A model generated the notes under the pieces. It was not told the origin of the DNA. It searched no databases and saw only the letters and a list, made by a program, of their open reading frames with translations. This document shows, piece by piece, positions 3,417 through 5,667 of a DNA stretch of 64,000 nt. The translations under genes were made by a program, and so were the position numbers. The stretch's first letter is position 1. Each line of letters opens with the position of its first letter. The DNA is taken from the NCBI GenBank assembly GCA_030704425.1, contig JAPDHM010000001.1, positions 558,001 through 622,000 of the forward strand, in the 5' to 3' direction. Source of the DNA: Rhodobacteraceae bacterium IMCC1909. GTDB lineage: Bacteria > Pseudomonadota > Alphaproteobacteria > Rhodobacterales > Rhodobacteraceae.

Positions 3417-4019
3417 TCAGTTGAAAGCTGCAATCGGCGCCAGGGACAAAATCAAAAGCCCTGCCATGGTCCAATTAAAGCCGCGCAGCCGGGCGGGTGT
3501 TGTCAAAAATCGCCGCATTTTCACACCAAGCATCAACCAGACGCTGATACAAGGTAGATTAATCGCGCCAAAAATCGTGGCAACGACGATCACCTCTTTA
3601 TAGGTCACCGGCTGGGGCGCATAAACCGTCACCGCGGCCAAGGCCATGGTCCAAGCCTTGGGATTTACCCATTGAAACGCAGCGGCTTGCCAGAAGGTAA
3701 TAGGCTTGCCCGTGGGTTCAGGGCTGTCCAGGTTTGTGCGGGCAGTTGCTGTTTTATAGGCCAAATAAATTAAATAGATAACTGACACAACGCCGAGCAG
3801 TTGATGGGCCAAAGGGTAGATTTGAAAGAGCTGCGCCACACCCAATCCGATGGCGACAATCATAAAGGTAAATCCCAAAACAATCCCGGAGGCATGGGGC
3901 GCTGCACGCCGCGCGCCAAAATTGGCTCCAGTGGCCATAAGCATCAAATTGTTGGGCCCGGGCGTGATCGAGGAAACAAAACAAAAGAGCACGAGACCGG
4001 TCAGCAGCGAATATGTCAT
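3417..4019 (-). CDS. LysE/RhtB family amino-acid exporter
   Basis: A 200-residue inner-membrane protein with about six hydrophobic segments and the N-terminal LysE signature TPGPNNLMLMATGANFGARRA at about residues 19-39. Members export basic amino acids, homoserine, threonine or related metabolites by proton antiport. The length is normal for the family. The substrate is unknown; the adjacent amine oxidase gives only weak context. Transcription runs away from the DUF1127/sRNA unit, whose terminator lies just upstream. Confidence 0.9.
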   Translation of the reverse strand: MTYSLLTGLVLFCFVSSITPGPNNLMLMATGANFGARRAAPHASGIVLGFTFMIVAIGLGVAQLFQIYPLAHQLLGVVSVIYLIYLAYKTATARTNLDSPEPTGKPITFWQAAAFQWVNPKAWTMALAAVTVYAPQPVTYKEVIVVATIFGAINLPCISVWLMLGVKMRRFLTTPARLRGFNWTMAGLLILSLAPIAAFN

Positions 4020-4078: not shown

Positions 4079-4148
4079 AAAAAAAAACGGCGACATCCGG
4101 GAGGAGGATACCGCCGATTTTTACAGGCTTCAGGGAGGAGAAAGCCTA
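4079..4148 (-). ncRNA. Cuckoo/CcsR-like small RNA with two anti-SD loops and terminator
   Basis: Read on the minus strand this is two consecutive hairpins and a U run. Hairpin one has arms AGGCTT/AAGCCT (4142-4147 and 4125-4130) with CTCCTCCC in its loop (4133-4140). Hairpin two has arms CGGCG/CGCCG plus an inner ATCC/GGAT helix (4088-4116) and exposes an exact CCTCCTCCC (4099-4107), followed by nine T. Known: in Rhodobacter sphaeroides the CcsR RNAs have this two-hairpin, CUCCUCCC-loop design and lie downstream of a DUF1127 gene (CcaF1). Here the RNA is likewise directly downstream of a DUF1127 gene. Inferred: it is processed from the DUF1127 mRNA 3' region, and hairpin two is also the terminator. 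Confidence 0.82.
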
Positions 4149-4153
4149 TGGTT

Positions 4154-4182
4154 CAGATCCAAGGCCGTGGGCGGTGGATCTG
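4154..4182 (-). other. Stem-loop between DUF1127 stop and the sRNA
   Basis: Perfect 8-bp inverted repeat CAGATCCA/TGGATCTG around a 13-nt loop, with no T run on the minus strand. It may be a processing signal or an additional stem-loop of the DUF1127-sRNA transcript rather than a terminator. Confidence 0.5.
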
Positions 4183-4199
4183 TAAAACTTAATTCTGGT

Positions 4200-4415
4200 T
4201 TATTTGCCGAATGCGGCCTCGTGAGCGATGCCCTTGATCGCGGACCGATGAATGCCAAGATCGGCCAGCTCGCGGCCTGTTAAGGATTGCAATTCGGTGA
4301 TTGTTTTGCGGTACAGGGCGCGTTTGGCCATTTGCTCACGCAAAGCGGTCCAGCGCGCTGTGAGTGCAGCACCGAATGAAGGGGCGGTTACATTGAAATC
4401 TGTTACTGTTGTCAT
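4200..4415 (-). CDS. DUF1127 domain small protein (CcaF1-like)
   Basis: A 71-residue protein. The C-terminal half (RALYRKTITELQSLTGRELA then DLGIHRSAIKGIAHEAAFGK) is the DUF1127 motif, an Arg-rich helix-turn-helix-like segment. In R. sphaeroides a protein of this class (CcaF1) is reported to bind RNA and act in sRNA maturation and RNA turnover; its gene precedes the CcsR RNAs, exactly as here. The ATG at 4415 is preferred over the longer open frame because AGAGGAT lies just upstream and the family starts here. A heat-shock-sigma-like promoter lies about 40 nt further upstream. Confidence 0.88.
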   Translation of the reverse strand: MTTVTDFNVTAPSFGAALTARWTALREQMAKRALYRKTITELQSLTGRELADLGIHRSAIKGIAHEAAFGK

Positions 4416-4455
4416 CGTTCTATCCTCTGTATCAACCGGACTGTTGTTACGCTCT

Positions 4456-4483
4456 ATGTGGAGCGCGGGGTGATATTTCGCAA
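4456..4483 (-). promoter_or_regulatory. RpoH-type promoter candidate for DUF1127-sRNA unit
   Basis: On the minus strand TTGCGA (4478-4483) is separated by 16 nt from CCACAT (4456-4461), resembling the TTG-N-CCAT layout of alphaproteobacterial heat-shock sigma promoters. A start near 4450 would give a leader of about 35 nt. Known: the R. sphaeroides CcaF1/CcsR operon is driven by RpoHI/RpoHII. Assignment is by eye only. Confidence 0.4.
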
Positions 4484-4602
4484 CGCATGTTTGGGAATTG
4501 CCGCTATGCAGCATTTGCATGGCTCCGTCCGCGCACCGGCCCTGGGCTTGCATCAAGCGAGTTGCGGGGGCATAGCTGCGCAGAGATTTGAGGAGAGCTT
4601 GC

Positions 4603-5667
4603 ATGCCAATCGACCGTTCTGATATTTTGGCCGCTTTGGCCCGTCTGCAATTGCCGGATGGGGGAGACCTGGTGAGCCGTGACTTCATTCGCGCCGTTGT
4701 GGTGGAGGGTGAGGCGGTGCGCTTCGTTATTGAAGCGCCAACGCCCGAGATTGCCCATAAGCTGGCCGACATTCGCGCCGCAGCAGAGCAAATTGTGATG
4801 CAACTTGACGGTGTGTCCAGCGTGACCGCAGTGGTGACCGCGCATGAGCAAAAAGCTGTGCCGCCGAACTTGAAAGTGGGTGGTCATCCCAAACCGCAAG
4901 ATGGGCCGCTCAAAGTGCCGGGTGTGAACCGAGTTGTCGCGATTGCCTCGGGCAAGGGCGGGGTTGGCAAATCGACGGTGTCTTCCAATTTGGCAGTGGC
5001 CCTGGCCAAGCAAGGCCGACGGGTCGGGTTGCTTGATGCGGATATATATGGTCCGAGCCAGCCGCGTATGATGGGCGTGAGCAAGCGCCCAGCCAGTCCC
5101 GATGGGAAGGTGATCATTCCGCTACAGGCCCATGGCGTTACGATGATGTCTATTGGTCTGATGGTTGATCCGAACAAGGCCGTGGTCTGGCGCGGCCCGA
5201 TGTTGATGGGCGCATTGCAGCAGATGCTCAATCAGGTGCAATGGGGGGAGTTGGATGTCTTGATCATCGATTTGCCGCCCGGCACCGGTGATGTTCAGCT
5301 GACACTTTGCCAGAAAACGGAATTGACCGGCGCAATCGTGGTCTCGACCCCGCAGGATGTAGCGCTTTTGGATGCGCGCAAGGCTTTGGATATGTTTGCC
5401 ATGCTGCACACGCCCATTTTGGGCATGATTGAGAATATGAGCCAATATATTTGCCCAAATTGCGGCCATGAAGCCCATATATTCGGGCATGGGGGCGTGG
5501 AGCTGGAGGCGCAGAAGTTGGGTCTGCCGTTCTTGGGCTCTTTGCCTTTGGATTTGGGCGTGCGCCTGGCCGGCGACAGCGGCACCCCAGCTGCGGCGGG
5601 CGATGGGCCGATGGCACAGGCATATGCGGAGCTGGCGCGCGGGTTGATTGCTTCGGACATCGCCTAA
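4603..5667 (+). CDS. mrp: Mrp/NBP35-family iron-sulfur cluster carrier ATPase
   Basis: A 354-residue cytoplasmic P-loop ATPase that carries and delivers Fe-S clusters. It has an N-terminal MIP18/DUF59 domain (about residues 1-85), then a deviant Walker A ASGKGGVGKST near 115-125, DADIYGPSQPRM, and the cluster-ligating CPNCG near 284-288. The ATG at 4603 is chosen because AGGAG sits at 4591-4595 with 7-nt spacing; the upstream in-frame TTG would overlap this site. It is divergent from the DUF1127 gene and followed by the gene-poor dcw leader. Confidence 0.95.
   Translation: MPIDRSDILAALARLQLPDGGDLVSRDFIRAVVVEGEAVRFVIEAPTPEIAHKLADIRAAAEQIVMQLDGVSSVTAVVTAHEQKAVPPNLKVGGHPKPQDGPLKVPGVNRVVAIASGKGGVGKSTVSSNLAVALAKQGRRVGLLDADIYGPSQPRMMGVSKRPASPDGKVIIPLQAHGVTMMSIGLMVDPNKAVVWRGPMLMGALQQMLNQVQWGELDVLIIDLPPGTGDVQLTLCQKTELTGAIVVSTPQDVALLDARKALDMFAMLHTPILGMIENMSQYICPNCGHEAHIFGHGGVELEAQKLGLPFLGSLPLDLGVRLAGDSGTPAAAGDGPMAQAYAELARGLIASDIA

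Follow-up and report, generated by a model that had tools for sequence, protein, structure and literature searches.

In Rhodobacter (Cereibacter) sphaeroides, the DUF1127 protein CcaF1 (RSP_6037) is encoded with the RNAs CcsR1-4 (RF02791), built of hairpins with CUCCUCCC loops. Passages of PMC10253847 give CcaF1 a length of 71 residues, the same as that of the protein studied here, and state that short DUF1127 proteins and CcsR-like small RNAs (sRNAs), named cuckoo RNAs or CIN1, often occur together in alphaproteobacteria. According to the parts of PMC10253847 and PMC8307010 drawn upon, the CcsR RNAs of R. sphaeroides affect C1 metabolism and pyruvate dehydrogenase. The ar14/NfeR1/SmelA075 group (RF02344) has similar anti-Shine-Dalgarno (aSD) loops, CCUCCUCCC, but differs in possessing three aSD hairpins and an RpoD promoter of its own, and the consulted portions of the papers on it (PMC10746234, PMC3927594) mention no DUF1127 link. 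A third RNA, MmgR of Sinorhizobium meliloti (RF00519), is repressed by PhaR/AniA according to an excerpt of PMC12542648 and offers a precedent for PhaR acting over an sRNA. The same excerpt gives the R. sphaeroides PhaR site as CTGCNNNGCAG and describes S. meliloti phasin promoters with two site copies flanking the −35 element.

Here, we analysed a stretch of 64,000 nucleotides (the window) from Rhodobacteraceae bacterium IMCC1909, whose closest named relatives, among the best 80 of 279 loci, belong to the marine Rhodobacteraceae genus Planktomarina. One of its loci is very probably the Planktomarina counterpart of ccaF1-CcsR (CIN1, 'cuckoo RNA'), cut to one two-hairpin unit. The module is already known, and the window holds a reduced variant of it.

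Results

A DUF1127 gene followed by three hairpins

The locus and its surroundings comprise the following features:

4603..5667, plus strand: divergent neighbour and locus marker, an mrp/NUBPL-type P-loop NTPase gene (PF10609, 1.1e-98)
4497..4513, minus strand: box 1, TGCTGCATAGCGGCAAT, with 7 of 8 fixed positions of the PhaR site
4465..4483, minus strand: eroded box 2, here TTGCGAAATATCACCC, family form TTGTGCANNNGCAGCA (score −12.5)
4455..4483, minus strand: putative promoter TTGCGA-N17-CACATA (−35 at 4478-4483, −10 at 4455-4460), assigned by position
4423-4428, minus strand: Shine-Dalgarno-like AGAGGA 5' of the DUF1127 gene
4200..4415, minus strand: DUF1127 gene of 71 codons, the probable ccaF1 counterpart (open reading frame; Pfam PF06568, E 1.1e-9)
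4154..4182, minus strand: SL0, an additional stem-loop that lacks an aSD motif, 17 nt past the stop codon (folding)
4123..4149, minus strand: SL1, a hairpin with CUCCUCCC in its loop at 4133-4140 (folding; covariation helices 1 and 2)
4079..4116, minus strand: SL2, a hairpin with CCUCCUCCC at 4099-4107 and an intrinsic terminator (folding; terminator scan; covariation helix 3)
3417..4019, minus strand: LysE-type exporter gene, downstream and past the terminator; 26 of the 80 named loci (best 80 of 279) have it

The initial annotation had described a 71-codon minus-strand DUF1127 gene followed by two hairpins with CUCCUCCC and CCUCCUCCC loops and a closing run of nine T, all of which was borne out. 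On the minus strand, the octamer CTCCTCCC lies at 4133-4140 and 4099-4106 and CCTCCTCCC at 4099-4107; the stem of SL2 runs from 4116 to 4088 and is followed by T9 at 4079-4087, where a terminator scan picks it up. The 129-nt 3' region folds to −46.5 kcal/mol (z −5.4), a stability equalled in 0 of 200 shuffles. Folded singly, SL0 (z −5.25) and SL2 (z −3.8) were equalled in 0 of 200 shuffles each and SL1 (z −3.3) in 2 of 200. A single CTCCTCCC is unremarkable: the window has 3 versus 1.5 expected, and 18 of 100 shuffles have three or more. Two copies 8-60 nt apart on the same strand, however, did not occur in any of 200 windows generated by a first-order Markov model.

The DUF1127 protein of the window has matches in 15 of 20 genus genomes, its own included, and a DUF1127 profile (A1) has matches in 242 of 246 family genomes when paralogues are counted in. 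The host genome (3.27 Mb) contains four DUF1127 matches in total. Two DUF1127 genes of another genome, G141, were set aside as loci other than the ccaF1-CcsR counterpart.

As a separate observation, UAUCCUC of SL2 (4104-4110) is a 7-nt complement of GAGGAUA (4421-4427) at the gene's own ribosome-binding site, a pairing through which self-regulation is possible. The complementarity is not kept in loci L008 and L010, because the motif is changed there.

Covariation of the two stems

Absence of covariation in the two stems had been set beforehand as counting against the annotation; covariation was found in both. In an alignment of 13 genus sequences (12 distinct; L017 and L018 left out), 11 of 19 pairs had changed on both sides with pairing kept, and 92.4% of the cells in the SL1/SL2 alignment were paired. 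Compensatory cells numbered 24 as opposed to a shuffle mean of 7.9, and the observed covariation was reached by 0 of 500 shuffles on four of five measures and by 9 of 500 on the fifth. The signal was lost when the pairing partner was slid, a comparison in which the true register has an advantage, the structure having been taken from the same alignment. The SL1 and SL2 stems are real.

These stems could, of course, do no more than terminate the DUF1127 mRNA and stabilise its 3' end, with inherited loop motifs that are relics without trans action. SL2 is a good intrinsic terminator, and several Planktomarina genomes keep the terminator stem under eroded loops. SL1, however, is dispensable for termination and yet its stem covaries; the window, L006, L007, L009, L011 and L016 retain both octamers unchanged; and at least one motif, and up to 17, is present in 72 of 80 named relatives (best 80 of 279). 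We therefore regard this explanation as unlikely.

Shared genomic position and comparison with known RNA families

A divergent mrp gene lies upstream in 71 of the 80 named loci (best 80 of 279), Cereibacter among them; eight have neither mrp nor LysE. In Cereibacter johrii and azotoformans, which served as positive control with an Rfam CcsR1 score of 106.2 bits, the array consists of eight CTCCTCCC, that is, four two-hairpin units. Since the window locus has the divergent mrp place in common with these eight-motif loci, and since its hairpins covary, we identify it as the ccaF1-CcsR counterpart. It combines a small DUF1127 gene immediately 5' of the hairpins and on their strand, a CUCCUCCC-loop unit and the Cereibacter position, and, as had been proposed, there is one unit rather than the four of R. 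sphaeroides. Compared with CcaF1-CcsR1-4, it shares the 71-residue protein, the same-strand two-hairpin RNA with terminator and the mrp-side position of the Cereibacter loci, and it differs in the single unit, the extra SL0, an eroded box 2 and an Rfam score under the gathering cut-off.

CcsR1 and ar14 were the two best Rfam matches, at the right place and on the right strand, and the best matches of the whole genome to both models fall here (in one scan that scored 150 of 875 candidates). The CcsR1 score of 30.3 bits, however, is below the gathering value of 65.3, and strict RF02791 membership was not reached. With E values of up to 1 admitted, 8 of 14 control genomes also gave CcsR1 matches, none above the cut-off. 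The gathering value was passed by two of seven relatives tried; Planktotalea, Wenxinia, Tabrizicola, Citreimonas and one Planktomarina relative were below it. Having missed five of seven relatives, the model is narrow. Another CcsR1 candidate in the genome (C2:821705, E 0.14) was dropped as it contains no CTCCTCC. The match to MmgR, a different RNA, was 16.7 bits with a gathering value of 41.

The bit score for ar14 (35.3) is slightly above that for CcsR1 and three hairpins are present, which would fit an ar14/NfeR1-type sRNA with three aSD hairpins and its own promoter, adjoining a DUF1127 gene by chance. Yet SL0 carries no aSD motif, the score stays under the ar14 gathering value of 58.8 so that membership was not reached, the mrp position of gene plus hairpins is conserved, and the conserved promoter boxes precede the gene and not the hairpins. 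Such a chance arrangement is highly improbable.

The reading of the locus as a minimal version of a stress RNA module is thus supported by its mrp position, by covariation and by CcsR1 and ar14 as best Rfam matches; gene, hairpins, covariation, shared position and short array are evident from the DNA itself. Counting against an sRNA module, DUF1127 proteins elsewhere work via protein contacts, as passages of PMC12501420 describe.

Array length and loss of motifs

Motifs were counted from the stop codon onward in the best 80 of 279 loci, some of whose contigs end early; L059 and L062 come from the same strain and were both counted, here as well as in the figures on gene neighbours, spacer hairpins, promoter boxes and box scores. 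There were no motifs in 8 loci (one of them, L057, truncated by a contig end), 1-2 in 13, 3-7 in 17, 8-12 in 37 and 13-17 in 5. Planktomarina loci mostly contain one unit. L008, L010 and L012 lack the octamer in one of their loops, and L013, L014 and L015 lack it in both. Variants occur in L017-L019, TTCCTCCC for example; SL2 of L018 and L019 still has the octamer. Loss of loop octamers in several loci suggests that the sRNA may be losing its function in Planktomarina.

Three further loci (L056, L071 and L077) have DUF1127 genes with both promoter boxes, no CTCCTCCC downstream and no mrp gene beside them; they are possibly a protein-only version of the module.

The extra stem-loop SL0

The extra stem-loop near the stop codon, also part of the initial annotation, proved to be real and specific to a lineage: six of the 15 genus loci have it, with proteins 89-100% identical to that of the window, and the other nine do not. 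A mobile repeat was rejected, as the host genome holds just the one copy with up to 3 mismatches allowed. Among relatives, short hairpins without aSD motif occur between the units of the arrays. They are present in 101 of 118 long intervals versus 10 of 317 short intervals across the 54 loci used, the other 26 having been dropped for holding less than four motifs. The 110 linkers between units had a mean folding z of −2.3, and 68% of them ranked at or below 5% of shuffles. SL0 could be what remains of such a spacer hairpin. It is equally compatible with an insertion next to or into SL1, because the window's lineage is the sole one to place SL0 between stop codon and SL1, and the flanks of SL0, judged by eye, look like the SL1 5' arm of relatives that lack SL0. 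SL0 could mark a processing site or modify the presentation of SL1.

A basal helix UUUURC/GYAAAA around SL0 and SL1 was also considered. It shows one compensatory A-U to G-C change between the window and L006 on one side and L007-L010 on the other; folding lent it no support (pair probabilities below 0.07 in the three sequences examined) and it was rejected.

A putative promoter and two upstream boxes

The putative promoter of the window sits where the family pattern TTGTGC-N17-CATNTT does. It is weak by either consensus, and a sigma-70 scan found nothing. Compared with an RpoHI/RpoHII promoter, it has the TTG of the −35 and a weak −10 (CACATA). For comparison, an excerpt of PMC10673084 quotes a motif with TTG and TAT for the RpoH-controlled DUF1127 gene rsp_0557.

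In relatives, box 1 (TGCTGCATRGCAGCATT) is followed by box 2 (TTGTGCANNNGCAGCA) 27-28 nt further on, measured by pattern start; the TTG of box 2 is the −35, and a CATNTT-like −10 follows 17 nt on. Among the 72 aSD-bearing loci of the best 80 of 279, the strict patterns matched each box in 56 and the two together in 41, while they occurred in 0.06% and 0% of single-base shuffles. In the window, box 1 reads CTGCATAGCGG, with one mismatch and a score of 28.9, and box 2 scores −12.5 versus a median of 26.9 in the 72 loci. Box 2 is also missing in the five SL0-bearing relatives. An mrp-linked locus without aSD motifs (L075) has no boxes.

Searched across the family, the strict box pair was found at 132 sites in 128 of 246 genomes, and its reversed pattern at none. 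At least 79 of the 132 sites lie just upstream of DUF1127 matches (148 among the matches listed). Each of the 30 sites fetched is followed by a DUF1127 gene, an aSD array or both: 27 have a DUF1127-like gene (recognised by a motif expression, not by Pfam) and at least one octamer, and the others include L184, a DUF1127-like gene with two motifs, and L179 with two DUF1127-like genes.

Some arrangements depart from the usual order. In L161 (G103:C27:212596), the box pair is followed by an aSD hairpin array with 10 CTCCTCC within about 700 nt, and no DUF1127-like open reading frame was seen in the interval; the module may exist here as sRNA alone. In L179 (G190:C10:63932), the pair is followed by two DUF1127-like genes in a row and then by a CTTCCTCCC element. 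The host genome carries three similar units (L152 at C2 ~37.4 kb, L153 at C2 ~159.8 kb and L154 at C1 ~27.6 kb), in which the RNA, a UUUCCUCCCGAAA hairpin plus GGCGGUGUC/GGCACCGCC terminator, comes ahead of the gene. L153 and L154 lie upstream of a DUF1127 gene and L152 upstream of a DUF1127-like frame recognised by eye and not among the Pfam matches; each is preceded by TTGTTGCAYYGCAGCATTT, which resembles box 2. None of the three had an Rfam match at gathering, mmgR in L153 scoring 18.5 bits, below that value.

Candidate PhaR operators

Box 1 fits the published R. sphaeroides PhaR site. Box 2 is the weaker case: it overlaps the −35 and spacer, and fits (7/8 fixed positions) only with 4 nt between the CTGC and GCAG halves. 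PhaC and PhaR are present in the host genome, and CTGCAGTGCAG and CCGCAACGCAG precede a gene between phaC and phaR that is a phasin by position but had no Pfam hit. These two sites are 26 nt apart from centre to centre as opposed to 30.5 or 31.5 nt in ccaF1 promoters (45 loci), so that the spacings are not the same. A looser box-1 pattern had 15 matches in the host genome versus 0 for the reversed control, and eight loci plus two sites before phaR were inspected. The sites include one before a thiolase gene and one before a zinc-type dehydrogenase gene, which we take to encode crotonyl-CoA reductase. Two box hits, L133 and L134, fell within coding sequence and were discarded.

PhaR was detected in 241 of 246 family genomes and in 13 of 20 genus genomes, and pair scores were obtained with a matrix trained on strict-pattern sites. 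Two PhaR-less genomes that are 100% complete, G022 and G152 (1 and 3 contigs), scored −3.8 and −7.4, and the PhaR-less Planktomarina drafts G012, G015 and G005 scored −2.6, 2.8 and 9.5. G124 (92% complete, 590 contigs; no PhaR detected) scored 60.7, which speaks against PhaR control; in these four drafts (78-92% complete), absence of PhaR may reflect assembly loss. The 37 PhaR-positive loci kept scored 10 to 64 (median 56.5), and five of six loci from PhaR-lacking genomes fell under all of them (one-sided p 0.002, ignoring relatedness). Three of 28 scored PhaR-positive family loci had been dropped, L104 and L128 for being short and thus given a wrong upstream offset and L120 for having no aSD motif; with them p was 0.008. 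Taken alone, box 1, which is intact in G005 and G124, gave p 0.013 and box 2 gave p 0.001. Across 20 genus genomes, incomplete drafts included, 12 have both PhaR and the gene, 1 PhaR only, 3 the gene only and 4 neither (joint absence, Fisher p 0.03). Two further counts speak against PhaR control. The strict pair is absent from 118 of 246 family genomes, a count that leaves looser pairs outside, and PhaR from just 5. Scores below 30 were obtained for seven of the 12 PhaR-positive Planktomarina, indicating that box pairs erode there with PhaR still present.

It is quite possible, if short of probable, that the boxes are parts of an RpoH-type promoter or sites of another regulator rather than PhaR operators. 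The overlap of box 2 with the −35 and its 4-nt gap, a box spacing unlike that at the phasin-like gene, the strong pair of G124 and the low-scoring PhaR-positive Planktomarina all point that way; the match of box 1 to the published site and the low scores of five of the six PhaR-lacking loci point to PhaR. Judged from these patterns, PhaR may act at the promoter of relatives; any such action in the window's lineage would be partial at most. If it acts in the window, it would do so via one site, since box 1 is kept and box 2 is gone. A joint mention of PhaR with CcaF1 was not found in the literature searched, a set outside which the key CcsR, CcaF1 and cuckoo papers lie and may mention the link; PMC9230146, in the parts consulted, names PhaR and DUF1127 in unrelated places.

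Discussion

Stress transcription, processing and target pairing are inferred here from R. sphaeroides. By this analogy, a single transcript from near 4448 would encode the 71-residue DUF1127 protein and end at SL2. Cleavage near 4150, in R. sphaeroides the work of RNase E helped by CcaF1, would free the 3' end as an sRNA of ~70 nt. Its exposed CUCCUCCC loops would then act as anti-Shine-Dalgarno sequences on GGAG-type ribosome-binding sites of target mRNAs, and the pairing would lower translation or stability of those mRNAs.

For the family as a whole, we tentatively suggest a double input, a proposal that we hold loosely: 1) an RpoH-type stress promoter would stand under a PhaR-type operator pair around the −35, with 30.5-31.5 nt from centre to centre, and the carbon-storage state would thereby gate the dose of hairpins binding ribosome sites; 2) array length (0-17 motifs) would set that dose; and 3) loss of PhaR would be followed by loss of the operators. 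Planktomarina would stand between, having a single unit, a single operator and a new stem-loop next to SL1 or inside it.

If PhaR does hold the promoter, a single circuit would link the stress sRNA with acetyl-CoA supply and PHB storage. The family offers a natural series, from 17 motifs down to none, in which the effect of hairpin dose is open to study, and in Planktomarina the module may be seen decaying.
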